Shown piece by piece: positions 20,216 to 33,789 of a stretch of 64,000 nt of DNA; position 1 is the first letter of the stretch, and every line of letters starts with the position of its first letter. The translations under genes were made by a program, and so were the position numbers. The stretch comes from Akkermansia muciniphila (GTDB lineage: Bacteria; Pseudomonadota; Gammaproteobacteria; Burkholderiales; Burkholderiaceae_C): the NCBI GenBank assembly GCA_943331105.2, contig CALQKH020000002.1, positions 62,001-126,000 on the forward strand. Reading direction: 5' to 3'. The notes below the pieces were generated by a model. It did not search any database, was not told the DNA's origin, and saw only the letters and a program-made list of their open reading frames with translations.

Positions 20216-21847
20216 ATGAATTTTAAAGTAAACAAAATTAACAACAGTTCTGCCGCTCGATTACTCGATGTGAAGTATCAAAAAGCCGCTGATCTGATCA
20301 ACAAAAAAAAATACCATGAAGCTCTTATGCTTTTGGATTCAATTCTGAAAAAACAACCAGAGCACCGGCTGGCCAAGCGCAGCAAACCCGTGGCTCTTTT
20401 TCATATGGGCCGTCAGCTTGAAGCGGCCAGATTGTTTCACCAGTTGCACGAACAAGACCCCGAAGATTTGGTCATCCTCAAACACTGTGGCGTCGCTTAC
20501 ACAGCAGTAGGTGCTTTTGAGATCGCCACCCAATTTTTGAGCCGTTACGTCAAGTCGAAACCCAATGACTTTGATGCATGGACGAGCTTGTCAGCGGCCG
20601 CTGGGAAGTCTCAACAATATGTTGAAGCGATGTTTTATGCCACCCAGGCCCTTTCTTTGGAACCAACCAACCCCAACGCCTACAACAACTTGGGGGCCAC
20701 CTTGTTGGGTGTCAACAAAATGGAAGAGGGAGAACAGGCTTTTGAAACAGCATTGTTACTCGATAAAAATAATGTTGATGCATTATCAAATTTAGCAACA
20801 TTGGCGCATCAACGCGGCAATTATGAGTCTGCAGTGACTTTGTATAACAATTTAATAAAAAATTTAGAACCTGACACAAATTTTGCAAAAGAAGTGATCT
20901 ACCGATCAAGCTTTTCTCACCTGGCAACTGGCGACCTCAAAGAAGGTTGGCGAAGGTATGACCTCGGATTTTTGCCAACAGATCGTGGGAGTCGTACTCC
21001 AAAGCGACAATTTCAGGAGCCCCAGTGGCACGGAGAACCACTGGGTGACAAGCGTCTTCTGATATGGGGGGAGCAAGGGTTGGGTGATGAAATTATATTT
21101 TTTGGCCTTCTTAATGAAGTTCAAAATCACTGCAAGAGTATCATAGTTGAGTGCGAGCCAAGGTTGGTAAGCTTGTTTGAGCGATCATTTCCGAATTTAA
21201 AGATAAAGGCCACCAACTTAAATTCTATAGATCTCACATATTCAAAAGAATTTGATGTGCATATCCCAGTCGGCTCACTCATGGGTTTATTTTGCAACAG
21301 CATCAAAGATTTCGAGAAACTTAAACCATATATCAAACCCAACCCTCTTCTGGTTACCGAGTTCGCGAGCAGGCTAAATCAATTCAGTGGAAAAAAATTA
21401 GTAGGATTATGCTGGCGCAGTGGAAAACTTAACACCAATAGAAATTTAAACTATCTTTCAATTGACGATTTAACAGATGTAGTCAAATTAGAGGATTGTA
21501 CATTTGTAAATCTTCAGTATGGTGATTGTGAAGATGAACTAACCAGAATAGAAAATAAATTAAATATCAAAATTTTACGTTGGAACGATGTTGATCTGAA
21601 AAATGATCAAGAACAATTAGCAGCACTCATAAGTTGTTTGGATGTAGTTGTTACAGCTGGGACTGCTGTAATGGCACTCTCAATGGCTCTAGGCAAGAAA
21701 ACAATAATGTTTGGACCAAGAGGCTGGGACTTTTTAGGACAAGAAAAATACCCATGGTCACCATGTGTTGAAGCTTTTTCGCCATCAGGAAGAGATGAGC
21801 TAATAAGTATCATACCAAATGTTATAAAACGTTTAAATAATTTATGA
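20216..21847 (+). CDS. TPR-domain glycosyltransferase, probable flagellin glycosylation
   Basis: A 543-residue protein. About residues 10-230 are tetratricopeptide repeats (YHEALMLLDSILKKQPEHRL; AFEIATQFLSRYVKSKPNDF; ALSLEPTNPNAYNNLGATLL). From about residue 285 comes a GT-B-like domain (LLIWGEQGLGDEIIFFGLL; GLCWRSGKLNTNRNLNYLS; VVTAGTAVMALSMALGKKT IMFG), seen in TPR-linked glycosyltransferases near flagellin genes. With no Maf-type transferase in the window, it is the likely enzyme that moves the CMP-activated sugar to flagellin (inference). The DNA turns strongly AT-rich from about 20,740, which suggests a transferred or recombined C-terminal half. The ATG at 20216 is chosen because it follows aagagg; starts at 20180 or 20189 are possible. 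Confidence 0.75.
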   Translation: MNFKVNKINNSSAARLLDVKYQKAADLINKKKYHEALMLLDSILKKQPEHRLAKRSKPVALFHMGRQLEAARLFHQLHEQDPEDLVILKHCGVAYTAVGAFEIATQFLSRYVKSKPNDFDAWTSLSAAAGKSQQYVEAMFYATQALSLEPTNPNAYNNLGATLLGVNKMEEGEQAFETALLLDKNNVDALSNLATLAHQRGNYESAVTLYNNLIKNLEPDTNFAKEVIYRSSFSHLATGDLKEGWRRYDLGFLPTDRGSRTPKRQFQEPQWHGEPLGDKRLLIWGEQGLGDEIIFFGLLNEVQNHCKSIIVECEPRLVSLFERSFPNLKIKATNLNSIDLTYSKEFDVHIPVGSLMGLFCNSIKDFEKLKPYIKPNPLLVTEFASRLNQFSGKKLVGLCWRSGKLNTNRNLNYLSIDDLTDVVKLEDCTFVNLQYGDCEDELTRIENKLNIKILRWNDVDLKNDQEQLAALISCLDVVVTAGTAVMALSMALGKKTIMFGPRGWDFLGQEKYPWSPCVEAFSPSGRDELISIIPNVIKRLNNL

Positions 21848-21915
21848 TTTAATGGCCCTTATTAAAAATTTTATTTCAATAAACAATTTTATAAAAGAAA
21901 TTTAATGTTTAATTT

Positions 21916-21932
21916 GTTTTTACGGTAAAAAC
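21916..21932. repeat. Small perfect palindrome in the convergent gap
   Basis: GTTTTTAC-G-GTAAAAAC lies between the convergent glycosyltransferase and amidotransferase genes, in very AT-rich DNA (21,848-22,060). No GC-rich terminator hairpin is seen in this gap, so this or a rho-dependent end may close both transcripts. Confidence 0.35.
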
Positions 21933-22060
21933 TGAGTTAGATGCCTGAAAAAAAGCCCCGTTTATAAATATAAATTTTAACAATAGTAATATGACTATGT
22001 TATGACAGGGTCATTAGCCACGATGATCCGCCAAACCCGTTATCGCGGTCTTTAAAGTCA

Positions 22061-23299
22061 TCACGGCCACCCTTTGCCAACGGTGATGTACTTATTCTGA
22101 TCGGCATCGGCCAACTGGCTGTTTGCAATGAAGCCACCACCACTAAAAACGCGCTCGTCGCCATAAGGGGCTTCCCCCTGCTCGATTGGCGAGAATGCCC
22201 AAACGCCGGGATCTGTCTGTTTCCAGAAACGGGGGTTTCGATGCTGATCCAGCATGAAATTGAGCGCCCTAATATTGACGCCCAACCAGTCGCAAAATTT
22301 GTCCGTATGCTGGAGCGGCGCATGCTCATAGCGCCGGACCAAAGCCAGTGCGTCATCACGCGTCAGGCGGCCATGCCGAATTTCGCGTGTCGCATGGTCT
22401 GTCACCTTAGAAAAACCATGCTTGTAACTTTTTAGCCGGTCATGCACATCCATGAAGTTGAAGCAGTCCACATGGTCATAGCAGTCGAATGTCCGTGCGA
22501 AACTTGCCGTGCGGTATTCATGCTGGCGCATCATCTCCTCGTGCTGAGCCTTGGGGTCCCAGCGCACATAGTTACCCAAATAGATGCCCCTCACACCCAC
22601 CCGGTCCAGATCGTGATCTGACGGGTATCTGTATTGCCAGACATCGTCTTCGGTCAACGTATCGAAGATGGACAGAAGGTCGTCAGCCTCTTTGCCCATC
22701 AAGTCATGGTCCTTGCGGTAGCGACGGGTCATCTCGACTTCATGTTCATGGGAAAACATGCCGACCTGCTCGAGCCCCTGATGCGCACCCCAGATAATCA
22801 GTGGCACGCCATAGCGAACTGCCGTCTGGACAGGAAATACTGTCTGGCCGGCAAGGCAAGGCCAATAGATGCTGCCAAACTCACGCAAGGTCGTGCGTGT
22901 GATTTTCTTCACCGAGTTAGGATTCACGTTTTGTACCAAAATATCGCAGTTGAATCGGATGCGAAGATTCGCCAGATTCCAGATTCCCAGCGAAGTATTG
23001 AAGTACTTGTTGTAAGTAACGAGCAAAGGATTGAGACCCAATTTCTCCTTGACCAAATGGACAATGAAGTACGAGTCGTTTCCTCCAGTAACCGGAACGA
23101 TGCAGTCGTAAGTCTGTCCACCAATGCTGCGATAAGGGCGAACCAAATCCTCCAGCTTCTTCCACCGCCCATCCCAATCAAGGCTATCCTTTTCTTCATG
23201 GATGCGGCAGCCCGAACAAATCCCTTCCTCATCCAGCGTAAGGCCAAGTGGATGCGATGCAGGATAAAGGCATCGTTTGCAGGTTTGAATCAGTTGCAT
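22061..23299 (-). CDS. N-acetyl sugar amidotransferase A (PseA/WbpG/WbuX-like), variant PP-loop
   Basis: A 412-residue protein of the PP-loop family that turns an N-acetyl group of a nucleotide sugar or nonulosonate into an acetamidino group, using ammonia from a HisH/HisF-type pair. The N-terminal zinc-type Cys sets are at C7/C10 and C28/C31 (CKRCLYPASHPLG ... GICSGC). The PP-loop at residues 71-76 reads TGGNDS where the family usually has SGG[K/x]DS, so nucleotide binding may differ. Its gene follows the HisF-like gene by 2 bases, the last of the leftward cassette. A second amidotransferase (24682-25809) keeps SGGKDS. It may work on another position or assist; unproven. Confidence 0.75.
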   Translation of the reverse strand: MQLIQTCKRCLYPASHPLGLTLDEEGICSGCRIHEEKDSLDWDGRWKKLEDLVRPYRSIGGQTYDCIVPVTGGNDSYFIVHLVKEKLGLNPLLVTYNKYFNTSLGIWNLANLRIRFNCDILVQNVNPNSVKKITRTTLREFGSIYWPCLAGQTVFPVQTAVRYGVPLIIWGAHQGLEQVGMFSHEHEVEMTRRYRKDHDLMGKEADDLLSIFDTLTEDDVWQYRYPSDHDLDRVGVRGIYLGNYVRWDPKAQHEEMMRQHEYRTASFARTFDCYDHVDCFNFMDVHDRLKSYKHGFSKVTDHATREIRHGRLTRDDALALVRRYEHAPLQHTDKFCDWLGVNIRALNFMLDQHRNPRFWKQTDPGVWAFSPIEQGEAPYGDERVFSGGGFIANSQLADADQNKYITVGKGWP

Positions 23300-23301
23300 A
23301 T

Positions 23302-24072
23302 TCAGTTTGACTCGATCTCTACAGATGGCGCCCGCAAAGGAAGATCTGCAAGCTGGTGTTTAAATGCGCCAATGGCGTTTTCGCGATAATTCAGGGCATT
23401 TCCAATCGCGGCTGCGGTCACCTGTCGGACATCCAGCACACGGCGCAAAACTGAAGCCTCACTGAGTCCGCCAAATGCGATCAGGGGCAAATCGTGCAAC
23501 GGAAATTGTTTCAGCAGCTCAAAGTCAAATCCACGATCGTGCCCTTCGTTTTTCCAGTCAATGATGAGCGCTTCCGACACCACTTTCTCACGCAGAAGCG
23601 CCACCACCTTTTCATTAAGCGGGGCATGTGTGCTGCGGCGATAGTCGAGCCAGCATAACCGACCCGATTCCATCGACAACGGCAAAGCCGCAATCAGTGC
23701 CTGCGCACCCAATCGGTCCGATAGCCCCCTCGCGACCTCGGGCGCATCGCGCAGCAACGCATCGATGCACAAACGGTCTGCGCCGGATTGAATGACACGA
23801 ATACCCTCCTCGACGGTGCGTATGCCTCCGGAAAAAATGATCGGCGTCCCCAGACCCATTTTGGCTACCCGGTCGAGCAAGCTAAAGTCCGGCCCCATTT
23901 GCTGAGCCGAGCGGTCGACGGATTGCAAAATGATTTCATCCGCGCCCCATCGATCGAGGTTCTCCGCCAAGATTTCGGGCTTGCCCAGGGGCAGATGACG
24001 GCGATAGCCAAAGGACTGCACCGCCCAGCCATTTTTCACCGTGATGACACCGACAAGACGTTTCTTAAGCAC
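23302..24072 (-). CDS. HisF-like ammonia-channelling partner (WbuZ/HisF2-like)
   Basis: A 256-residue (beta/alpha)8 barrel of the HisF family. KKRLVGVITVKNGWAVQS aligns with the HisF start, where the catalytic Asp11 (CLDVKDG) is a Thr, and the strand around Asp130 reads LIAALPLSME with no Asp. Both catalytic acids of histidine biosynthesis are thus missing, so it is not a housekeeping HisF. The phosphate-binding FSGGIRTVEEG and FGGLSE loops remain. It probably passes ammonia from the HisH-like protein to an amidotransferase. The GTG at 24072 is favoured; a TTG at 24087 overlaps the hisH-like stop further. Confidence 0.8.
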   Translation of the reverse strand: MLKKRLVGVITVKNGWAVQSFGYRRHLPLGKPEILAENLDRWGADEIILQSVDRSAQQMGPDFSLLDRVAKMGLGTPIIFSGGIRTVEEGIRVIQSGADRLCIDALLRDAPEVARGLSDRLGAQALIAALPLSMESGRLCWLDYRRSTHAPLNEKVVALLREKVVSEALIIDWKNEGHDRGFDFELLKQFPLHDLPLIAFGGLSEASVLRRVLDVRQVTAAAIGNALNYRENAIGAFKHQLADLPLRAPSVEIESN

Positions 24073-24685
24073 GGCACAACCCTTCAATCACTGAAGCCAG
24101 CATGGCTCTCCCTGCCGACTGACTTTTTTCCGGATGAAACTGAAGCCCCACCACATTGTTGCGATGCACCCCCACCGTGAATGGCTCGCTGAACTCATCC
24201 ATCCTTGCAACTGCCATCTGATATTGGGCCGGCGCATCGAAAACATAGGAATGATTGAAGTACATGGCCTGCCCATCGCTGTTCATGAACAGCGGCTCAT
24301 CCTTGACCACCTCGATGCTGTTCCAGCCTATGTGCCAGCGTGATTGTTCCAGTGCCATGACTTTGCCCGGGATCAGACCCAGTCCTGCTGTAAGCCCCAG
24401 TTCACTGGAACTGTCCGCGAGCAGTTGCATTCCAAGACAAATGCCAACCACGGGCTTGCCACCCAGGGCCTGCTGACAAAGAATGTCAGCCAGATCACTG
24501 GCGTGCAGCGCCTGCATGGCCGCCGGGAACGCACCCACACCAGGAAGCAGCAGTAAATCCGACTGAGCCAGCGTCTCGCTGTTGCCAGCGATTCGACACC
24601 GATAGCCCATCGTATGCAACGCATGCCGAACAGAAGCCAGATTACCCACGCCGTAATCAACGATACCGATGGTAAGCCGCTTCAC
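24065..24685 (-). CDS. HisH-like glutamine amidotransferase (WbuY/HisH2-like)
   Basis: A 206-residue class I glutaminase. The catalytic triad is visible: Cys83 in GICLGMQ, His184 and Glu186 in FHPEKS; the N-terminus IVDYGVGNLASV and LPGVGAF are HisH hallmarks. It releases ammonia from glutamine for the sugar amidotransferase reaction through the HisF-like partner, with which it overlaps by 8 bases. It also overlaps amidotransferase B (ends 24682) by 4 bases, so the three are translationally coupled. This arrangement is the known WbpG-HisH2-HisF2 / WbuXYZ set, not the his operon. Confidence 0.88.
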   Translation of the reverse strand: MKRLTIGIVDYGVGNLASVRHALHTMGYRCRIAGNSETLAQSDLLLLPGVGAFPAAMQALHASDLADILCQQALGGKPVVGICLGMQLLADSSSELGLTAGLGLIPGKVMALEQSRWHIGWNSIEVVKDEPLFMNSDGQAMYFNHSYVFDAPAQYQMAVARMDEFSEPFTVGVHRNNVVGLQFHPEKSQSAGRAMLASVIEGLCRA

Positions 24686-25809
24686 AGCCCCACCCCGACC
24701 TTGAATTTCGGGTGAATCGATCCATCGGATTCCACCGTGAACAAGGTCTTGTTAACCGATGCTTTAACTTTTTCCCAAAAGTCCGCTACAGATATTCCTA
24801 GATAATCACAGTAGTCTTTGATGTATTTTTGATCCTGAGCATCGTCAAATCTTTCGACGATTTTTATAGCGGCTTCACGACTGATACGCCCTAAACGAAT
24901 TTCCTCGTTGACATAATCTGTCACTCGACCGAAACCGAACTTGTAGTATTTTATCAACTGGTTGACCGGTGTGAAATCTTCATCCAATGCCGTAACCCCA
25001 TAAAGATCACCGGTCTTCTCAACGCCATCAACACGTATCTCAAGACCATTTGCACAGGAGTAGGCTGCATTATTAACCAAAGACCAATCACCAAGGAACC
25101 ATCCAAGGTAGACGATCTGAAGATCATGCTTCTCAAATTCTTTAGTTTCTGGATACACATATGAAACCAGATCAGCCTTAGAAAATCCGCAATCCAGCAT
25201 CCAGTCTAGGCCACTCGAAAGCGTATTCATATAGCGCAAACTGTTACCATCATATCCAGTCCGCCCAAGTGTTTTCATATCACCCAACTGTAAACCTGGA
25301 TTTTCGCCCCAAAATATCAACTTGATGCCATACTTGATAGCGATCTGGGGCACTGAAGCAAAAAGCGCCATTTCTGTCGAACGGAAGGAATTAGTAAACT
25401 CCCGAAAACCTTCGCGTTTTAATTTTTTCCAGGTTTGTGGCGCTGGCGCACTGACTACGACATCAAAACCAAGTTCTATCAAGTTTGAAAGGTTGTTCAC
25501 ACCACGCTCGGTCACCTGCTCCGGCGGGTAACTCAAACAAACTAGCAGCGGATTGATACCCAGTTTGTCGCGTAGAAACAATGCTTGACGTGTACTATCC
25601 TTGCCTCCGCTTACGCCAATGATGCAATCATGGTATTGGCCTTTCTTCCTGGGATGACTTGCCAGCAGATCTTGAAGAATCTCAAAACGCTCATGCCAAT
25701 CCACATGCTGAAGCGCTTCAAAATAATTGCATGCAGGACATACCCCATCCGTCGAAAAGACGGTGTTGGGTCGGGTATCCGGTTGAAGACAACGATTGCA
25801 ATACTTCAT
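24682..25809 (-). CDS. N-acetyl sugar amidotransferase B (PseA/WbpG/WbuX-like)
   Basis: A 375-residue PP-loop enzyme. Cys pairs C4/C7 and C24/C27 (CNRCLQPDTRPN ... GVCPAC) and the intact ATP-binding SGGKDS (residues 67-72) fit active N-acetyl sugar amidotransferases, such as PseA of Campylobacter, which makes the 7-acetamidino form of pseudaminic acid. It is directly coupled to the HisH-like gene. The DNA is more AT-rich than that of the HisH/HisF genes after it, so the cassette may be a composite. Confidence 0.85.
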   Translation of the reverse strand: MKYCNRCLQPDTRPNTVFSTDGVCPACNYFEALQHVDWHERFEILQDLLASHPRKKGQYHDCIIGVSGGKDSTRQALFLRDKLGINPLLVCLSYPPEQVTERGVNNLSNLIELGFDVVVSAPAPQTWKKLKREGFREFTNSFRSTEMALFASVPQIAIKYGIKLIFWGENPGLQLGDMKTLGRTGYDGNSLRYMNTLSSGLDWMLDCGFSKADLVSYVYPETKEFEKHDLQIVYLGWFLGDWSLVNNAAYSCANGLEIRVDGVEKTGDLYGVTALDEDFTPVNQLIKYYKFGFGRVTDYVNEEIRLGRISREAAIKIVERFDDAQDQKYIKDYCDYLGISVADFWEKVKASVNKTLFTVESDGSIHPKFKVGVGL

Positions 25810-25821
25810 GCGTTATCCAAA

Positions 25822-26844
25822 TCAGTCTTGCGGCTTTCGCGCAACGATCCACATGTTAGACGACAGCCCTTGATGTATCAAGAACTCTTGGAACGCCGCT
25901 CCGAGTCGCTCCCAGTCATCCACCAAAACTTTTTTCAAAAAAGGTTGATTCGACACATCGAATTCACCAGAGATAATCTTGTTTCTAACCAAATCGGCAT
26001 CCAGCTTACCTGGGGTAAAACTTTCAAGTATTTCCAACCCACAACTGGTCAACAACTGAGCCAATGATTTCGGATTGAAATAATTTAAATGTTCATGATC
26101 AACGGTATTACTCGTCGTGCCCAAGGTCTCAATATCGAAGCCCTGCCCGTTTGGACAGGTTAACATTATAATTCCTCCCGGCCTCAACAAGCGTGTCATA
26201 TGCCCAACAAAATCAATCGGTGCAAACAAATGTTCGATTACTTCAAAACTGGCCACTACATCGAATAACTCTGCAGCCTCTAATTGAATCGATTCAACAG
26301 GCACTTCTAAAACTTCAAGCCCCTTGTCCCTGCATGTTTTTGCCAGATCTGGTGTTGGCTCCACAGCAACCACGCGGGTGAAGACGTCGCGCTTTTTAAC
26401 TTCTCCGCAAAACGTCCCAAAACCCGCCCCCACTTCCAGTATTGAGCCCGTATGAATTTCGTACTTACGACAAAGCTCCAACAAGCGATCAACTCTAGGC
26501 ACAAAAATTCTCTCACGCCTAACAGACTCAGAAGCAGGAAAAATCACCTCATTCCAATAGGCATAATTAGGAGAACCGCGATAAAACCACTCCAGCACAT
26601 CTAAAGGAGGGCGTGGGTTAACGTAAAAAGTGTTGCACTCTTTACACTCCACGTAATTTATTCCATTTTTTTCGAATTTCGGTGCGTGTGCATTAGCCCC
26701 ACAAGCGGGGCAGTCCACATGAACAAACTCACCATAACGGGATAGCATTCTGCCGACATCTGTCAATGCTGCAATTCTTTGATTGGCCATCAATTGCACG
26801 GGCCGAATTTCCTTTTCCGAAAATGTACTCACCTTAATCTCCAT
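25822..26844 (-). CDS. Class I SAM-dependent methyltransferase with N-terminal zinc-ribbon-like Cys pairs
   Basis: A 340-residue protein. Two CxxC pairs (C45/C48, C67/C70: CPACG and CKEC) precede a Rossmann methyltransferase domain with motif I ILEVGAGFGTFCGE (residues 135-148), acidic VVAVEPTPD, and FEVIEHLFAPIDF. This build is common in sugar-modifying enzymes of surface glycan clusters. It is the first gene of the leftward amidotransferase cassette, 12 bases ahead of amidotransferase B. An N- or O-methylation of the amidinated sugar is a reasonable guess (Legionella carries N-methylated acetimidoyl legionaminic acid), but the acceptor cannot be read from the sequence. Confidence 0.7.
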   Translation of the reverse strand: MEIKVSTFSEKEIRPVQLMANQRIAALTDVGRMLSRYGEFVHVDCPACGANAHAPKFEKNGINYVECKECNTFYVNPRPPLDVLEWFYRGSPNYAYWNEVIFPASESVRRERIFVPRVDRLLELCRKYEIHTGSILEVGAGFGTFCGEVKKRDVFTRVVAVEPTPDLAKTCRDKGLEVLEVPVESIQLEAAELFDVVASFEVIEHLFAPIDFVGHMTRLLRPGGIIMLTCPNGQGFDIETLGTTSNTVDHEHLNYFNPKSLAQLLTSCGLEILESFTPGKLDADLVRNKIISGEFDVSNQPFLKKVLVDDWERLGAAFQEFLIHQGLSSNMWIVARKPQD

Positions 26845-27005
26845 CCATCATTAAATAATATGCAAATTAAATCGCCACAGCATGAAAAACTCCGGCATTT
26901 TTGAATGGCGAGGCATCTGCAGGCCTATCGTTATCGAATACACAAGCGATATTTCTGCAGCGGCCGTGCAATGCTTGAAGTTTTGACACGAGGTTCGCTT
27001 AGACA
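26845..27005 (-). other. Boundary between the pse operon and the acetamidino cassette
   Basis: A 161-base AT-rich non-coding gap after the pseI stop. No strong terminator is seen. A GG-N11-GC sequence on the minus strand near the right of the cassette start has the wrong spacing for sigma-54. The gap, and the base composition change across it, mark the junction of two gene blocks. Confidence 0.4.
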
Positions 27006-28052
27006 TCACTTCAAGCAATCCTGCCGCACCGGAGTCCCCCAGGCGACGTCAACTGAGAGTGTCGCCCCGATAATCCGATCAAGATTTTTAGGCGCAAGGC
27101 CGAACCCAGGGCGAATGCTCTTCACTTTTTCCGGTGTAATTTTTTCACCCGCCTTTGTGTCCTGCACAAAGTAAAGCGAGCGGCGAAATTTAACGTTGCC
27201 TTCTTCGCTTGATTTGCGACCGTAATCCACCCGACCCAACGCTGACCAAGCGGTTTTTGCACCGCGACACAGCGCTTCTAAATCTGCTGGTTCCAAGGAG
27301 AAGCTGTCGTCTGGCCCACCACCGCTTCTGTTCAGCGTGAAGTGCTTTTCAATGATGCTGGCACCCATAGCCACGCTGGTAATGGCGGTGGTGTTGTCCA
27401 GGGTGTGGTCAGATAAGCCCGTAACCAAGCCAAACCTTTCGATCATGTCGGGAATGGTACGCAAGTTGTAGTCTTGCGCAGGTGCGGGATAACCGCTCAC
27501 GCAGTGCAAGATGGCCAGATGTTTGCAGCCACCTTCGCGGGCAGCGTCAATGGCTTCCTGAATCTCATCGGCATCGGCCATGCCGGTCGAAATGATCATT
27601 GGCTTGCCCGTGCTGGCGGCGTATTTGATCAGCGGCAGGTCCACTGCTTCAAACGATGCAATCTTGTAAGCCGGGGCGTTCAGGTCTTCCAGCAGGTCGA
27701 TAGCGGTGTTGTCAAAGGGCGAACTGAAGATGGTGATGCCAAATTTGCGCGCGTGTTCAAACAGGAGTTTGTGCCAGTCCCAAGGCATGTGTGCTTCTTC
27801 ATACAACTCATACAGCGAACGACCGTCCCAAAGTCCGCCGCGAATCTTGAAGTCTTCGCTGTCGCAGTTGAGGGTGATGGTGTCTGGCTTGTAGGTTTGA
27901 AGCTTGACAGCGTCTGCGCCGGCCTTTTTGGCTTCTTCAATGATACGTAGCGCGGTTTCGAGTTTGCCGTTGTGGTTGGCCGAGAGTTCAGCAATCACAT
28001 AAGGGGAATGCTCGGGACCGATGGGCCGGCCTGCGATTTCAATTTGAGGCAT
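27006..28052 (-). CDS. pseI: Pseudaminic acid synthase PseI
   Basis: A 348-residue NeuB-family synthase that condenses 2,4-diacetamido-2,4,6-trideoxy-L-altrose with phosphoenolpyruvate. The NeuB barrel begins with YVIAELSANHNGKLETALRI, then AGADAVKLQTYKPDTITL, GITIFSSPFDNTAIDLLE and GLSDHTLDN; the SAF antifreeze-like domain closes the protein (RRSLYFVQDTKAGEKITPEK V). IAELSANHNG and the IRGGLWDGRSLYELYEEAHMP area (20 residues: IRGGLWDGRSLYELYEEAHM) are typical of PseI rather than NeuB/LegI. Its start overlaps pseH by 14 bases. Confidence 0.95.
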   Translation of the reverse strand: MPQIEIAGRPIGPEHSPYVIAELSANHNGKLETALRIIEEAKKAGADAVKLQTYKPDTITLNCDSEDFKIRGGLWDGRSLYELYEEAHMPWDWHKLLFEHARKFGITIFSSPFDNTAIDLLEDLNAPAYKIASFEAVDLPLIKYAASTGKPMIISTGMADADEIQEAIDAAREGGCKHLAILHCVSGYPAPAQDYNLRTIPDMIERFGLVTGLSDHTLDNTTAITSVAMGASIIEKHFTLNRSGGGPDDSFSLEPADLEALCRGAKTAWSALGRVDYGRKSSEEGNVKFRRSLYFVQDTKAGEKITPEKVKSIRPGFGLAPKNLDRIIGATLSVDVAWGTPVRQDCLK

Positions 28053-28578
28053 TGGGTTGATCCTGTTTTAGTTGGCTTTCTTGCCAGTCTTTGGCCAGCA
28101 GACCAAAGCAAATAAGGGTGTAGTACTGATTGGCAATGCATTGTTGTTCTCGCAGGCGGCCTTCTTCTGCAAAGCTCAACTTTCGATGGAACGCGACGGA
28201 CGCCACATTGGTTTCAATGGCTTGTCCGCACACCTTGTGCAGCCCCAAGGCGTTGAAGGCGTATGCCAAAGCAGCTTGGCCAAGTTTTTTGCCGCTGCCT
28301 TTGGGGGCATCTGGCCGTACATAAAACCCCCAGTCGGCAATGCCGCCTTGGCAAACTTGTTTGAATTGAACAAAGCCAAGAGTATGAGCGCCATCCAACA
28401 CGATCAGCTGTTGCCGGGTCTTGTCTTCCTTCACACGCACAAACCAGTTGCGGTGCTCTTCCAGGCTGATTTCATGCTGCGTCAGCATGCAGCTGCGCAC
28501 AGCAGGATGGTTGCGCCAATCCAGGACCATGCGCAAGTCGGCATCGGTCAATGCGCGAACGGTGCAAGCGTCAGACAT
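28039..28578 (-). CDS. pseH: UDP-4-amino-sugar N-acetyltransferase PseH
   Basis: A 179-residue GNAT enzyme that acetylates the 4-amino group of UDP-4-amino-4,6-dideoxy-N-acetyl-beta-L-altrosamine. It has the GNAT pattern RALTDADLRMVLDWRNHPAV (a PseH/RimJ-like opening), WGFYVRPDAPKGSGKKLGQA, and NVASVAFHRKLSF for acetyl-CoA binding. It lies between pseG and pseI with overlaps at both ends (8 and 14 bases). Confidence 0.92.
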   Translation of the reverse strand: MSDACTVRALTDADLRMVLDWRNHPAVRSCMLTQHEISLEEHRNWFVRVKEDKTRQQLIVLDGAHTLGFVQFKQVCQGGIADWGFYVRPDAPKGSGKKLGQAALAYAFNALGLHKVCGQAIETNVASVAFHRKLSFAEEGRLREQQCIANQYYTLICFGLLAKDWQESQLKQDQPNASN

Positions 28579-29662
28579 GGGGCTCTAAAAGTAATTCAAC
28601 CACTTGGGATACGCCGTTACACGCTGCCAGTTTTGCTGAAGCTTGGCTCATTTTTTGGAGCGCTGCTGTTTGCGTGGTTTTGTCAAATAGTGCAGATATT
28701 TGGGTCCTGAGTTGCTCCGCATCAGCCGCTACCCAAGCGGCGTCATGCGACTGCAATGCCATCGCACCACTGTGTTGATTTGCGGCCAAGATCAAAACGA
28801 ATGTGGGCAAGCCCACAACACATCTTTCCCATGCACTGCCACCAGCCGCACCTATGCACAAATCACTTTCAGCCATCAGTTGCGCCATGTTGCTCACACC
28901 CACCAGCACTTGTGTTGACCGGGGCATGGCTGCTGCGCGGGCTTGCACTTGGGCCATCCAGGGGGCGTTTGGTCCCATAACCACGGTTATTCGCAGATCG
29001 TTGGGCAATTTGGAGCGGGTCAGTGCGTCCAGAACTTGACTCGTGGCGTTTGTCTGGTCAACGCCGCCCATGGTGATGAGCAGGTTTTTCAGCTGCAGGC
29101 TTTCGCGACGCTTCAGACTGTGTTCGCGCCATTGCGCAAATTCAGCCCGGAGCAATGCATATGCCGGGCCAATCAGGGTTTGCGTATGACAGCTAATCAT
29201 TCCAAGGTAGTCTTGGGCTTGGCGACCCAAGTTTTGATCCAGCAGCAGGTCGCAGTCGTGCGGGCGATCGGCCAAGTCGTCAATGACCATGATGCGCCGA
29301 GTCTTTGGACGCAGGGCTTGTTCCCAATGGCGGTCGAGCGCGTAATGATCCACCACCAGCCAGTCAACCACTTGATCGTCCAGAGCTTGCTGCGTTTGCA
29401 AAGCATCGGTTGCCCAGTCGGTGCCCAGCCATTTGGCGTGTGTTGGGTATGCGGGGGCGGTGAGTAAAACGTCAGCTGGAGGCAGTGCTATGACACTGTG
29501 TCCGCGTTGGTGGATAAGATCCAGTAAGTGACCAGCGTGCGAGCGACAAATGAAGGTGCATTGCGCACCGCATTCGCGCAGGGCATCGGCCAGCGTCAGG
29601 CAGCGCATGACGTGCCCTGTGCCAATGTCATGCGAAGCATCAGTACGGAAGACTGTTTTCAC
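28571..29662 (-). CDS. pseG: UDP-2,4-diacetamido-2,4,6-trideoxy-beta-L-altropyranose hydrolase PseG
   Basis: A 363-residue GT-B-like hydrolase that removes UDP before the PseI step. Family hallmarks: RTDASHDIGTGHVMRCLTLA at the N-terminus, VVDHYALDRHWEQALR, MVIDDLADRPHDCDLLLDQN and the C-terminal GAAGGSAWERCVVGLPTF. The start codon is GTG at 29662. It follows the methylase gene by 14 bases and overlaps pseH by 8. Confidence 0.93.
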   Translation of the reverse strand: MKTVFRTDASHDIGTGHVMRCLTLADALRECGAQCTFICRSHAGHLLDLIHQRGHSVIALPPADVLLTAPAYPTHAKWLGTDWATDALQTQQALDDQVVDWLVVDHYALDRHWEQALRPKTRRIMVIDDLADRPHDCDLLLDQNLGRQAQDYLGMISCHTQTLIGPAYALLRAEFAQWREHSLKRRESLQLKNLLITMGGVDQTNATSQVLDALTRSKLPNDLRITVVMGPNAPWMAQVQARAAAMPRSTQVLVGVSNMAQLMAESDLCIGAAGGSAWERCVVGLPTFVLILAANQHSGAMALQSHDAAWVAADAEQLRTQISALFDKTTQTAALQKMSQASAKLAACNGVSQVVELLLEPHV

Positions 29663-29676
29663 GGCTCAATTACGGG

Positions 29677-30288
29677 TTATTTCTTCTTGAAAAGCCACCA
29701 CGTGACATCATCAAAGCCAGCGTTGTCGTAAAGATGCCCCCATAGAAATCCATGATCCACAAGTTCAACGGGGAAGTTTTCGATGAAAAGCTTGCCGAAG
29801 TCCCGCTTAAAAAGTTTATCCTTTTGTCCTTGGTACTCGAGCATGATCGGAGTGCGATTGAAGTACTCGCCCATCAAAATGTACCCGGATGACAGCTTAT
29901 ACATTCTCTCCATATTTTTCAGCAGGTTGTCCGGATGGATATGGATCAATACGCCAATCGTGAATACCAGATCGAAGCTTACTTCTTGGAAATTCGCATC
30001 CTCGATTGCGCCATTGAAGGCTTGCGCAAAATCATGCCGGCTAGTGACAAACTCGAATGCAGGCTGACTGATTTCGATGATCGATTTGCTAGCGCTGGGC
30101 AGCAACGCATTTAGAAAATCGATATTTCTGCCGATGTTGCAACCGCACTCCAGTATGGAGTTAATAGGCGCCACCTTCTCCAGCATCAGTTTCCAAGCAG
30201 CGACTCCCTTTTCCCGGTCGAATTGGCTGTTCTTTTTAATGTATTCATCGGCATAGGTATTGGCCCAGAATTTTTGCTGCTCGTTCAT
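29677..30288 (-). CDS. Pseudaminic acid biosynthesis-associated methylase
   Basis: A 203-residue SAM methyltransferase (motif I LECGCNIGRNIDFLNALLP; FDLVFTIGVLIHIHPDNLLK) matching the small family of methylases found inside pse operons. It starts with the typical NEQQKFWANTYADEYIKKNS. It sits between pseF (24-base gap) and pseG (14-base gap), which makes it part of the operon. The methyl acceptor in this family has not been established as far as I know; the final sugar or an intermediate are the candidates. Confidence 0.85.
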   Translation of the reverse strand: MNEQQKFWANTYADEYIKKNSQFDREKGVAAWKLMLEKVAPINSILECGCNIGRNIDFLNALLPSASKSIIEISQPAFEFVTSRHDFAQAFNGAIEDANFQEVSFDLVFTIGVLIHIHPDNLLKNMERMYKLSSGYILMGEYFNRTPIMLEYQGQKDKLFKRDFGKLFIENFPVELVDHGFLWGHLYDNAGFDDVTWWLFKKK

Positions 30289-30312
30289 ATCTACTCCAAG
30301 GAATATTTAAAA

Positions 30313-30999
30313 TTAATTGGAAGATGCCAGGTGGATGCGCTCAGCACGCTTCCAGTCATCCTCTGTGTCGATATCCACCACGCGCCAGCCCGGAATCTGG
30401 TAACCAATGGCGCTGCTGTGAACACGTGGATTGGTCAGCCATGCCCGTTTAGAGCCCCAATAAAACTGACCTGCATCGTGATATGCCTTCTCGAGATCTT
30501 GAGTTCGGACAACTTCATATTCGGGATAAAAAGGCAAGGTTCGGCCATGTTCATCCCGCTTCATAGCCCTCTGTATGGCAGAAGGGAATTCGGCGACTGG
30601 GAAGCAATAATCGGCATCCGAGCGATTCAAGAAAGCCCATGATTCCTTGAGATCAACAATCTCTAAAAATGGCACACAGGCATAGATGCAACACACATGA
30701 TCAATTTGAGAGCCTAGTATTTCTTCGCAAGCCTGGATGGCGTGGGCGACGACTGGCACAGTCGGGGTGTGATCATCTGCCAGTTCAACAGGCCTGACAA
30801 ACGGGGTCTTAGCTCCCCACTCGCGGGCAATCTGAGCTATTTCCTCATCGTCCGTCGAAACGATGACGTGATCGAACAAGTCCGAACCGCGTGCCGCCGC
30901 GATGGCATGAGCGATCATGGGTTTGCCAGCAAAGAGCCTGATGTTCTTGCGGGGTATGCGTTTACTGCCTCCACGCGCAGGAATGATTGCCAGTTTCAT
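30313..30999 (-). CDS. pseF: CMP-pseudaminic acid synthetase PseF
   Basis: A 228-residue CMP-nonulosonate cytidylyltransferase. The nucleotide-binding N-terminus LAIIPARGGSKRIPRKNIRL is diagnostic, then MIAHAIAAARGSDLFDHVIV, STDDEEIAQIAREWGA and the C-terminal VVDIDTEDDWKRAE. It makes the activated donor for flagellin glycosylation. The 4-base overlap with pseC (ATGA type) shows coupling. Confidence 0.94.
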   Translation of the reverse strand: MKLAIIPARGGSKRIPRKNIRLFAGKPMIAHAIAAARGSDLFDHVIVSTDDEEIAQIAREWGAKTPFVRPVELADDHTPTVPVVAHAIQACEEILGSQIDHVCCIYACVPFLEIVDLKESWAFLNRSDADYCFPVAEFPSAIQRAMKRDEHGRTLPFYPEYEVVRTQDLEKAYHDAGQFYWGSKRAWLTNPRVHSSAIGYQIPGWRVVDIDTEDDWKRAERIHLASSN

Positions 31000-32156
31000 A
31001 CGCCCATAGCCTCTCGGAGGCTGTTGACGATAAATTGCTGCTCAGCATCGCTTAAGTTGACGTGCATAGGGATACTGATAGCTTCACAGTAATACTGCTC
31101 AGCCTCCGGATAGTCGCCGAGCTTGAAGCCCATGTTTTGGTAGTACGGCTGGGTATGCACTGGGATGTAGTGCAAGTTGACCATGATGTCTTTGGTGCGC
31201 AGAGCTTCAAAAACTTGGCGATGGCTGAGCGCAATGCGGTCGAGTTGCAGGCGAATCACATACAAGTGATAGGCGCTATAACTGTCTGGTTGTTGCCAAG
31301 GCAGGGTGAGTGGCAGATCTGACAAGAGTTCGTTGTAACGCTGGGACATCTGGTGGCGGCGCTGAACGTAGCCGGCCAGCCGTGTCATTTGGCTGGCACC
31401 TAATGCGGCTTGCATGTCGGTCATGCGGTAGTTGAAGCCCAGCGCCACTTGCTGGTAGTACCAGGGTCCTTCCATCGGCTGGGTCATCAGGGCTGGGTCG
31501 CGGGTGATGCCGTGGCTGCGCAACAGGCTTAGCTTAGTAGCCAGTTCGTCGCTGTTGGTCAGGGCCATACCGCCCTCACCCGTGGTGATGATCTTGACGG
31601 GATGGAAGCTGAAGACGGTGATGTCGCTATAGCGGCCGTTACCAATGGGCTCACCTTTGTATTGGCCGCCAATGGCGTGTGATGCGTCTTCGATGATCTT
31701 GAAGCCAAACTTTTGGCCCAAGGCATGGATGGCGGCCATGTCGCAGGGCTGTCCAGCAAAATGAACGGGCACGACCACCTTGGGCAGCTTGCTGGCTTTT
31801 TGAGCCGCAATGAGCTTGGCTTCCAACTTTTGGGGACACAGGTTGTAGGTGCGCGGGTCAATGTCGACAAAGTCAACTTGAGCGCCGCAATACAAAGCGC
31901 AGTTGGCAGATGCAACAAATGTATTGGGCGTGGTCCAGAGCCAATCACCGGGGCCAAGGTCGAGGGCCAGGCAAGCGATGTGCAAAGCGGCCGTGGCGTT
32001 GCTGACAGCGATAGCGTGTTTGGCACCGGTGTGACCGGAAACGCGTTCTTCAAACTGCGTGATGGCCGGACCTTGCGTCAGGTTCACGGATTTCAGGACG
32101 GCGACGACGGCGTCAATGTCCTCTTGCGTAATATCCTGCTGGCCATACCGGATCAT
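30996..32156 (-). CDS. pseC: UDP-4-keto-sugar aminotransferase PseC
   Basis: A 386-residue PLP enzyme of the DegT/DnrJ/EryC1 family that aminates the 4-keto product of PseB using glutamate. The PLP lysine is Lys188 in FSFHPVKIITTGEGG, and the family signatures MIRYGQQDITQEDIDAVVAV, AVSNATAALHIACLALDLGP and ALGFNYRMTDMQAALGASQM are all present. Second gene of the operon, 3 bases after pseB. Confidence 0.94.
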   Translation of the reverse strand: MIRYGQQDITQEDIDAVVAVLKSVNLTQGPAITQFEERVSGHTGAKHAIAVSNATAALHIACLALDLGPGDWLWTTPNTFVASANCALYCGAQVDFVDIDPRTYNLCPQKLEAKLIAAQKASKLPKVVVPVHFAGQPCDMAAIHALGQKFGFKIIEDASHAIGGQYKGEPIGNGRYSDITVFSFHPVKIITTGEGGMALTNSDELATKLSLLRSHGITRDPALMTQPMEGPWYYQQVALGFNYRMTDMQAALGASQMTRLAGYVQRRHQMSQRYNELLSDLPLTLPWQQPDSYSAYHLYVIRLQLDRIALSHRQVFEALRTKDIMVNLHYIPVHTQPYYQNMGFKLGDYPEAEQYYCEAISIPMHVNLSDAEQQFIVNSLREAMGV

Positions 32157-32159
32157 GGC

Positions 32160-33158
32160 TCAGATACTCCCAATCTTGTCTTTGTTCATACGGATCCAGT
32201 CCTGCAACTGCATGTCGGTAAGCCATTCTGCATTGTTGTCACTGGCATACACAAAACCCTCAGGCACTTTGACCCCGGTTTTGATGCGCTTAGGGCAATT
32301 GGCCCATCCGTTGATGGTGGGCAAAATTTTGAAGTGCTCGGGGTATTCGTAGGTGTAATGCGCGTCTTCTGAGCTGATCATTTGCTCATGGAGTTTTTCG
32401 CCTGGGCGAATGCCGACCACCTCCTGGCGAGCCTCTGGTGCCAGCACGCGCGCCAGATCGGTCACTTTCATGGAGGGAATTTTTTTGACATAGATTTCAC
32501 CACCCACCATGTCTTCAAAAGCATGCCAGACCAATTCCACGCCCTCCTCCAGCGAAATCATGAAACGCGTCATTCTCTCGTCGGTGATGGGCAGGACCCC
32601 CTTGTCCTTGACAGACATAAAAAATGGGATCACCGAGCCTCTAGAGCCCATGACATTGCCGTATCGGACGACTGAGAAGCGCGTACTCTTATCACCAGAA
32701 TAGGCGTTACTCGCCACAAACAACTTATCAGAAGCCAATTTGGTGGCACCGTACAAGTTGATCGGGCTGCTGGCTTTGTCGGTGGACAGTGCAACTACCC
32801 TCTTGACGCCTTTATCAATGCAAGCGTCAATCAAATTCATGGCTCCCATCACATTGGTTTTGACACACTCGAATGGGTTGTACTCCGCAGTGGGCACAAT
32901 TTTGGTTGCCGCAGCATGAACCACAAAATCAACGCCATCCAAGGCGCGGTGGAGTCGATCTTTGTCGCGGACATCGCCAATGAAGAAGCGAACCCGCGAG
33001 TCACCCTCAAACTTCTTAGCCATATCCCATTGCTTCATCTCATCTCTGGAAAAAACAATGATTTTTTTGGGGTTGTACTTTTCAAGGGTCATGGGCACGA
33101 ACGTGTTGCCAAATGAGCCTGTACCCCCAGTCACCAAAACAGTTTGATTTGTAAACAT
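32160..33158 (-). CDS. pseB: UDP-GlcNAc 4,6-dehydratase (inverting) PseB
   Basis: A 332-residue SDR enzyme of the first pathway step: it dehydrates UDP-GlcNAc and inverts C5. NAD-binding TVLVTGGTGSFGNTFV, the catalytic YGATK, and ALSTDKASSPINLYGATKLA are family marks. The ATG at 33158 has GGAG 7 bases upstream and follows a sigma-54 site at 33182-33198 by a short leader, so the longer frame starting at 33179 is rejected. It heads the operon pseB-C-F-methylase-G-H-I. Confidence 0.95.
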   Translation of the reverse strand: MFTNQTVLVTGGTGSFGNTFVPMTLEKYNPKKIIVFSRDEMKQWDMAKKFEGDSRVRFFIGDVRDKDRLHRALDGVDFVVHAAATKIVPTAEYNPFECVKTNVMGAMNLIDACIDKGVKRVVALSTDKASSPINLYGATKLASDKLFVASNAYSGDKSTRFSVVRYGNVMGSRGSVIPFFMSVKDKGVLPITDERMTRFMISLEEGVELVWHAFEDMVGGEIYVKKIPSMKVTDLARVLAPEARQEVVGIRPGEKLHEQMISSEDAHYTYEYPEHFKILPTINGWANCPKRIKTGVKVPEGFVYASDNNAEWLTDMQLQDWIRMNKDKIGSI

Positions 33159-33512: not shown

Positions 33513-33789
33513 GAGACCAAACTAGGAAATTCCAGCAAAAAATTTTGCCGGTTTATTGACCAATCACCGAGGACATGTTCATGAGGTTTTCATCAAAACG
33601 CAGCTGTATGAGTGCCACTTCAGGGTTATCCACTCGGTCTGAAGGTGTGGTTTTTTCAGGGGAACTCAACTCTGTTCCCTTTCAAAACTGTGCCGAAAAC
33701 CCAAGAAGCCGACATAAAACTCGGCCTGAATCACCAGCGAATTGAATTCTGAACCTCTTCTACAAACGAATATTTAAGGAAAAATGATC

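Follow-up and report, generated by a model that had tools for sequence, protein, structure and literature searches.

A pseudaminic acid locus between two flagellin genes, with a predicted amidinated and methylated product and a pair of divergent amidotransferases

Organization of the locus

The DNA analysed here is a 64,000-nucleotide stretch of contig CALQKH020000002.1 (assembly GCA_943331105.2; a betaproteobacterium, order Burkholderiales in the GTDB lineage), hereafter the window, which carries a pseudaminic acid (Pse) locus between two flagellin genes. Twelve genes on the minus strand (22061–33158) run from position 33158 downward in the order pseB-pseC-pseF-MT1-pseG-pseH-pseI-MT2-WbuX1-hisH-hisF-WbuX2, where MT1 and MT2 encode methyltransferases and WbuX1 and WbuX2 encode paralogous N-acetyl sugar amidotransferases. 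As the genes are contiguous, with intergenic gaps of −23 to +161 bp, the run is likely one operon. It is located between flaA and flaB, whose products are the sole flagellins found in a search of the 3.4 Mb genome; the third Flagellin_N match was FlgL, not a flagellin. The genes, with NCBIfam or Pfam evidence, are as follows.

18015–20078, plus strand: FlaA, flagellin of 687 amino acids and likely acceptor protein (Pfam Flagellin_N and Flagellin_C)
20216–21847, plus strand: FlmG-like tetratricopeptide repeat (TPR) protein, likely flagellin pseudaminyl-transferase (TPR repeats; relatives beside Pse and flagellin genes)
22061–23299, minus strand: WbuX2, amidotransferase paralogue with altered active-site motifs TGGNDS and WGAH (TIGR03573, 309 bits, cut-off 203)
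23302–24087, minus strand: HisF-like putative ammonia-channelling partner (His_biosynth PF00977; best NCBIfam match WbuZ, 98 bits, cut-off 300)
24065–24685, minus strand: HisH-like glutaminase, catalytic Cys and HPE motif kept (TIGR01855, 188 bits, cut-off 105)
24682–25809, minus strand: WbuX1, N-acetyl sugar amidotransferase with canonical PP-loop, motifs SGGKDS and WGEN (TIGR03573, 283 bits, cut-off 203)
25822–26844, minus strand: MT2, S-adenosylmethionine-dependent methyltransferase with Cys-rich N-terminus, candidate amidine N-methyltransferase (Methyltransf_23)
27006–28052, minus strand: PseI, pseudaminic acid synthase (TIGR03586, 505 bits, cut-off 340)
28039–28578, minus strand: PseH, N-acetyltransferase (TIGR03585, 107 bits, cut-off 93)
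28571–29662, minus strand: PseG, UDP-sugar hydrolase (TIGR03590, 322 bits, cut-off 154)
29677–30288, minus strand: MT1, pseudaminic-acid-associated methylase (TIGR03587, 166 bits, cut-off 112)
30313–30999, minus strand: PseF, CMP-pseudaminic acid synthetase (TIGR03584, 286 bits, cut-off 206)
30996–32156, minus strand: PseC, aminotransferase (TIGR03588, 556 bits, cut-off 424)
32160–33158, minus strand: PseB, dehydratase/5-epimerase (TIGR03589, 546 bits, cut-off 408)
33784–35847, plus strand: FlaB, flagellin of 687 amino acids and likely acceptor protein (Pfam Flagellin_N and Flagellin_C; 80% identical to FlaA)

The CMP-pseudaminic acid pathway is complete. An earlier note on this DNA had placed all six pse enzymes on one strand with two N-acetyl sugar amidotransferases and HisH/HisF-like partners, in a block bracketed by two flagellin genes, and each of these statements holds: PseB, PseC, PseF, PseG, PseH and PseI all lie on the minus strand and exceed their NCBIfam equivalog cut-offs, both WbuX proteins score well above the family cut-off, the HisH and HisF genes sit between the two WbuX genes, and the two flagellin genes enclose the block. 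The note had one methyltransferase where there are two. Its interval, 20216–33158, contains the pse block and also spans the plus-strand TPR gene, which went unmentioned. The parts listed were present, and the altered WbuX2 and the FlmG-like gene were overlooked. Genome searches returned one PseI-family match (E ≤ 1e-40) and no WbuX match beyond these two.

The flanks of the locus are flagellar by best NCBIfam match, with FlgK, FlgL and FliD on one side and FliF, FliG, FliH and FliI on the other, past a sigma-54-activator-like gene. FlgK, FlgL, FliF and FliG passed their NCBIfam cut-offs and FliI passed a subfamily cut-off; FliD and FliH missed theirs. The GC fraction is 0.41 in the FlmG-like gene, 0.45–0.46 in WbuX1, MT2 and MT1, and 0.56 in the whole window. 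Overall, the locus has the appearance of an island for flagellin glycosylation, put together by exchange. Comparable layouts were found again in other genomes, which excludes a chance arrangement. The gene order in Candidatus Ferrigenium altingense (L029) is nearly that of the window, and a separate genome (L116) has the order PseB-PseC-MT1-PseF-PseG-PseI-WbuX-HisH-HisF-FlmG-like-flagellin-FlaG-FliD.

Two amidotransferases are paired around one HisH/HisF pair

We surveyed 349 genomes of the same order for the WbuX family. Matches above the cut-off occurred in 42 genomes at 56 places, all of which were read; six sub-threshold matches (E < 1e-20), three of which were fetched, were left out of the counts. 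Twelve of the 56 places belonged to the WbuX1 clade (six) and the WbuX2 clade (six), in the same six genomes and always as a quartet with HisH and HisF in between. In a second set, of named genomes, we searched with a WbuX2 alignment and took the best 80 of 185 relatives, which according to the record titles come from Proteobacteria, Cyanobacteria, Bacteroidetes, Verrucomicrobia, Chlorobi and others. The order WbuX1-HisH-HisF-WbuX2 was complete in 77 of these 80 loci, with the starts of WbuX1 and WbuX2 at most 3.6 kb apart. As for the three exceptions, the L057 and L091 loci start at the edge of their contigs, and in L071 the four genes are all there but WbuX2 is more distant. Two loci are on the same contig as another (L053 as L005, L061 as L004) and some are near-duplicates (e.g., L025/L028, L030/L031, L068/L069), the latter making the quartet counts less independent than they appear. 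These data indicate that the paired pattern is real at the genome level; its mechanism we infer.

The quartet was also seen in L072, L075, L096 and other loci, from Flavobacterium, Pedobacter and Prochlorococcus. These lineages are not known to have flagella, and the quartet is therefore not flagella-specific. One further WbuX gene of the order (L013:2367-4436, genome G002) encodes a protein of ∼690 amino acids with a seeming HisF-like part and adjoins an MT2 gene; it looks like a WbuX-HisF fusion.

WbuX2 is a conserved paralogue with a remodelled active site

Motifs and conservation were counted over 78 sequences per paralogue, the window included. In WbuX1, the PP-loop SGGKDS and the glutamate of the WGE motif were present in 78 of 78 sequences and four cysteines were at least 97% conserved, so that it has the family profile, the tetracysteine and the PP-loop SGGxDS. 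WbuX2 likewise matched the family profile and had both Cys pairs of the tetracysteine (78/78). It also has the fold: its predicted structure (predicted local distance difference test, pLDDT, 85) matched a Legionella N-acetyl sugar amidotransferase, 8WEX, with template modelling (TM) scores of 0.74/0.79. In the available text on 8WEX, the PP-loop is the proposed ATP site (PMC10607449). WbuX2 does not have the canonical SGGxDS loop: the sequence is TGGNDS in the window, is canonical in 4/78, and has alanine at the third position in 65/78. The WGE glutamate was found in 0/78 WbuX2 sequences, with alanine in its place in 76. Of 43 other WbuX-family members of the order (one fused protein was left out by its length), 42 retained SGG and 30 the glutamate; the remaining 13, a more distant group, carry another motif there. 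The partner proteins are conserved as well, the HisH glutaminase keeping its catalytic Cys in 78/78 and FHPE in 77/78.

The altered motifs of WbuX2 do not reflect decay. More positions were at least 97% conserved in WbuX2 (102 of 412) than in WbuX1 (77 of 375), which rules out a decaying copy. These positions include eight histidines in WbuX2 and none in WbuX1, and position 177 of WbuX2 is Glu or Asp in 78/78. In a 33-row maximum-likelihood tree, WbuX1 and WbuX2 (six rows each) formed one clade apiece with 100/100 support. Both were also single clades in a 109-row FastTree, with support of 1.0 for WbuX1 and 0.43 at the base of WbuX2, which there adjoins canonical single WbuX proteins, mostly from Pse clusters.

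A reading that accommodates these features is that WbuX2, with its remodelled active site, acts as an obligate partner of WbuX1 and HisH/HisF; taken by itself, we put this role just short of an even chance. Its main rival, compatible with everything else proposed here, is that both paralogues are active and share HisH/HisF, one amidinating the C-5 and the other the C-7 acetamido group to yield Pse5Am7Am, possibly methylated. The strong conservation of WbuX2, including the acidic residue 177, agrees with such two-site amidination, as do the PP-loop residues that it keeps (Gly-2 in 76/78, Asp-5 in 78/78, Ser-6 in 77/78), and the available passages describe C-5 amidination of Pse in Campylobacter jejuni (PMC3068675) and Tannerella (PMC6120980) and C-7 amidination in PMC13317340. 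Nevertheless, the near-universal loss of the canonical PP-loop and of the WGE glutamate in WbuX2, in a family whose other members in the order almost all keep SGG, argues against a second active enzyme. Moreover, neither clade occurred alone at any of the 56 places in the 349 genomes, even though one would expect a one-site version to have persisted in some genome. We therefore regard two-site amidination as unlikely, if a serious competitor. An ordinary PseA-type cassette that yields the known Pse with one acetamidino group is also conceivable; WbuX2 would then be a redundant copy of no special role. That WbuX2 passes the family profile and has the fold would suit a duplicate, but the two proteins form separate clades that stay paired across several phyla, and a dispensable copy would often have been lost instead of being kept in 77 of 80 loci; we consider this explanation improbable.

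The WbuX1 tree follows the upstream sugar genes more closely than those of HisH, HisF and WbuX2

A flank of at least 6 kb upstream of WbuX1 was available at 64 quartet loci, and PseI (at least 42% identity) was present in 51 of them; other WbuX loci of the order had it in 10 of 38, a rough comparison, as the flanks differ and at least one PseI (L108) falls just beyond the stretch. A module of a Gfo/Idh oxidoreductase, a DegT aminotransferase, a GNAT protein and a protein of unknown type recurs upstream of the quartet (e.g., L060:3708-7475, and many of L021–L100). It often stands between the quartet and PseI, and there is none in the window cassette. In an earlier count, the module was called where at least two of its four genes matched at >30%; for the trees, loci were labelled by the aminotransferase at ≥37% identity, a threshold chosen after the first module count had been seen. 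This labelled 65 quartets, 42 with the module and 23 without.

The number of label changes over each gene tree was compared with 300 shuffles, for which the mean was 19 in every case. The WbuX1 tree required 6 changes (shuffled minimum, 13), whereas the HisH and HisF trees each required 17 (minima, 14 and 10). The WbuX2 tree, with 14 changes (minimum, 14), also has a weak signal of the upstream module. The window, too, is a mosaic, with WbuX1 nearest to that of L029 (89% identity) and HisH, HisF and WbuX2 nearest to those of L021 (85–87%). Pairwise distances over 78 loci correlated at 0.92 for WbuX2-HisF and 0.80 for WbuX1-WbuX2; in a 50-locus subset, the values were 0.74 and 0.43. The tree and distance patterns fit the hypothesis that WbuX1 is a substrate-specific subunit and HisH-HisF-WbuX2 a common unit.

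Two methyltransferases differ in linkage

The family to which MT1 belongs, TIGR03587, is named ‘pseudaminic acid biosynthesis-associated methylase’ and was above its cut-off in 16 of the 349 order genomes. In 15 of these, MT1 lay at most 5 kb from a PseI-family match; in the sixteenth (G257), the two were on different contigs. WbuX above the cut-off lay at most 10 kb from MT1 in seven genomes and not in the other nine, G257 among them. In this order, MT1 therefore goes with Pse and not with the amidine, and a role of MT1 as the amidine methylase is disfavoured. In a sample of the phylum, 15 of 299 genomes matched MT1, with a top identity besides the window of 40%, and WbuX was found in 0 of 12 wider stretches around these distant relatives. 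The window's own MT1 subtype (>60% identity) occurred in 9 of 77 quartet loci, all of them loci fetched by WbuX2.

MT2 showed a different distribution. Relatives of at least 40% identity were found in four genomes of the order, the window's included, and in one further genome of the phylum, and in four of these five WbuX lay at most 5 kb away. The synthase at one such locus (L177) is just 33% identical to PseI. Within the 77 quartet loci, MT2 at >40% identity was present in nine. The two genes thus differ in linkage: MT1 accompanies Pse genes with or without an amidotransferase, and close relatives of MT2 tend to adjoin amidotransferases. This linkage, together with the parallel of PtmH and Legionella ORF 8, to which the available text assigns amidine N-methylation on legionaminic acid (PMC3766260), thinly suggests that MT2 is an amidine N-methyltransferase.

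A FlmG-like protein is the candidate flagellin glycosyltransferase

The N-terminal half of the TPR protein matched several TPR families above their cut-offs. Five other genomes of the order (L116, L131, L134, L135 and L142) have a relative that neighbours Pse and flagellin genes, as does a Verrucomicrobiaceae contig (L045); in L134, the synthase has just 35% identity to PseI and misses the PseI cut-off. Pse and flagellin genes occur together in six fetched regions of the order, and a FlmG-like gene accompanies them in five; the exception is a sister species. Identities were 21–38%, but invariant columns were common to the C-terminal halves of the nine aligned FlmG-like proteins.

According to the available text, FlmG of Caulobacter crescentus joins a TPR part at its N-terminus to a glycosyltransferase-like part at its C-terminus and serves Pse glycosylation of flagellin without Maf (PMC7591256). 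We read the TPR protein as FlmG-like because its layout and neighbourhood agree with those of FlmG, and by this analogy it is likely a flagellin glycosyltransferase. The likeness is to the described layout, and the glycosyltransferase fold is a prediction here. No Maf match (PF01973, PF20157) was found in the genome, a weak test, as PF01973 matched four archaeal controls only and PF20157 none. That FlmG-like genes adjoin Pse and flagellin loci suggests that betaproteobacteria can glycosylate flagellin independently of Maf. Two of the relatives, L020:14739-17726 (995 amino acids) and L131:15121-18057 (978 amino acids), have an extra C-terminal region of ∼400 amino acids that is lacking in the window protein.

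Proposed product and pathway

The gene content of the operon provides for CMP-Pse5Ac7Ac by the established pathway of PseB, PseC, PseH, PseG, PseI and PseF. In general, HisH frees ammonia from glutamine for HisF to hand on; at this locus, HisH would likewise release the ammonia and HisF relay it. WbuX1, with its intact PP-loop, would then convert an N-acetyl group of Pse to an acetamidino group, paired with WbuX2 as its putative partner. From their linkage, MT1 would methylate Pse itself and MT2 probably the amidine nitrogen. Finally, the FlmG-like protein would move the sugar to Ser/Thr residues of flagellin before export. The suggestion made earlier, of an amidinated and methylated Pse for flagellin, remains the best-supported reading by gene content and linkage, and its product is a prediction. 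We think it probable, with moderate confidence, that the operon and its FlmG-like neighbour provide such a sugar for both flagellins.

A number of observations weigh against this scheme. In the FlmG-like protein, the C-terminal half matched Glyco_transf_9 (PF01075) at E 0.0077, below the cut-off, and the predicted model of this half was poor, with pLDDT mostly <50. HisF fell under the cut-off of every curated HisF/WbuZ family and reached only that of the general Pfam family PF00977. Of the 80 quartet-type loci fetched, 3 had a flagellin match, and PseI was not found nearby in 13 of the 64 quartets with at least 6 kb upstream. A PseI-family gene was present in 5 of the 12 wider stretches around distant MT1 relatives and absent from the other 7, two of which are under 9 kb long. 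The fifth genome with a close MT2 relative, G320, has WbuX ∼24 kb away, and WbuX was found in 0 of 7 wider stretches around MT2 relatives of 24–36% identity in the phylum sample. Loss of the WGE glutamate is by itself no proof that WbuX2 is inactive, because 13 of the 43 other family members also go without it. As WbuX1 physically adjoins the upstream genes, linkage may give its tree signal; plain linkage is disfavoured because the step between WbuX1 and the adjoining HisH is sharp. Lastly, a FlmG-like gene and the window's modification genes are both missing from the sister species, although Pse genes adjoin its flagellin.

The scarcity of flagellin at quartet loci, the extra sugar-modifying module upstream of most labelled quartets and neighbourhoods that, judged by eye in a few lists of open reading frames, resemble polysaccharide clusters could mean that the Pse derivative is destined for a surface polysaccharide and that flagellins flank the cassette by chance, but the window cassette lacks that module, its sole adjacent glycosyltransferase candidate is the FlmG-like protein by FlaA, its flanks are flagellar and other genomes of the order place Pse and FlmG-like genes by flagellins, so that we give this explanation very little credence.

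The most far-reaching form of the proposal is a four-subunit acetamidino synthase, distributed over several phyla. WbuX1 would be its exchangeable, substrate-specific catalytic subunit and HisH-HisF-WbuX2 its conserved unit for ammonia delivery and activation, with the ATP site of WbuX2 swapped for a histidine-rich one. Here, the product would be an N-methyl-acetamidino, further methylated Pse on flagellin. We offer this previously undescribed arrangement tentatively, as possible rather than probable.

Relation to known systems

Acetamidino sugars occur on the flagella of C. jejuni and in the lipopolysaccharide of Legionella and Pseudomonas aeruginosa. In C. jejuni, hisH and hisF presumably adjoin pseA. 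The window resembles that system in its Pse genes, N-acetyl sugar amidotransferase and flagellin glycosylation, as far as the available text of PMC3958885 and PMC13317340 goes, and differs in that a single HisH/HisF pair stands between two divergent amidotransferases, and in having two methyltransferases and a FlmG-like gene, with no Maf detected. The earlier note had cited PseA-type enzymes as makers of 7-acetamidino Pse in Campylobacter. The acetamidino Pse stands, while its position is less settled than stated, because in the passages available the sugar is written Pse5Am7Ac in PMC3068675 and PMC3958885 and Pse5Ac7Am in PMC13317340. The note's suggestion that a sugar both amidinated and methylated may be undescribed was too broad, as the available text of PMC3958885 reports an acetamidino form of a di-O-methylglyceric-acid Pse derivative on flagellin of C. 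jejuni 11168.

Other combinations of these modifications are on record in the excerpts available: N-methyl-acetamidino legionaminic acid (PMC3958885, PMC3068675), Pse5Am7Gra in Tannerella (PMC6120980, PMC6388019) and, in Shewanella oneidensis, methyl groups assigned to a second moiety and not to the nonulosonate (PMC3765264). PtmG/PtmH of Campylobacter and ORF 28/ORF 8 of Legionella, as described in parts of PMC3766260 and PMC13317340, are alike in amidinating and then N-methylating a nonulosonic acid; the sugar there is legionaminic acid and here Pse, and MT2 is likened to them by linkage, not by sequence. Clostridium Pse clusters with a PtmH-like and a second methyltransferase are similar in that methylated flagellin Pse was predicted from genes; in the available passages of PMC13317340, they have Maf transferases and paired amidotransferases are not mentioned. 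Among the matches listed in searches of the open-access literature, as far as their text was available, we found no description of paired WbuX paralogues around HisH/HisF or of N-methyl-acetamidino Pse. The predicted sugar is a new combination of known modifications, and the amidotransferase pair is the more interesting finding.

Searches of the PDB matched one crystal structure, whose authors remark, in the text available, that little is known of the N-acetyl sugar amidotransferase family (PMC10607449). The window proteins share the fold and tetracysteine with this Legionella enzyme (8WEX), WbpG and WbuX, and WbuX1 also shares the PP-loop SGGKDS; WbuX2 departs from them, having neither a canonical PP-loop nor the glutamate of WGE. 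The 8WEX enzyme is a dimer of itself, with contacts that its authors, in the available passages, call poorly conserved, whereas here two paralogues co-occur. The enzymes that make acetamidino sugars are little characterised. If WbuX proteins really work in pairs, treating every WbuX gene as a separate amidotransferase misleads for many genomes, and activity could be reconstituted only with both paralogues. Substrate choice can be tested by swapping subunits, given the way in which WbuX1 is exchanged.

The corresponding region of a sister species

In the sister species (G234, L127), flagellin, FlaG, FliD and PseB, PseC and PseI are 82–91% identical to those of the window and apparently occupy the same place. 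In this neighbourhood (L127:9484-16920), where the window has the amidotransferases, MT1, MT2 and the FlmG-like gene, the sister species has a different methyltransferase along with genes for an FAD oxidoreductase and a WbqC-like protein. The C-terminal half of the FlmG-like protein had no match in the sister-species genome; the same query recovered itself in the window's genome. These differences suggest a glycosylation island that varies within the genus. Between flagellin and pseI of the sister species (L127:7509-9418) lie open reading frames that, judged by the look of their sequences, are transposase- or integrase-like.

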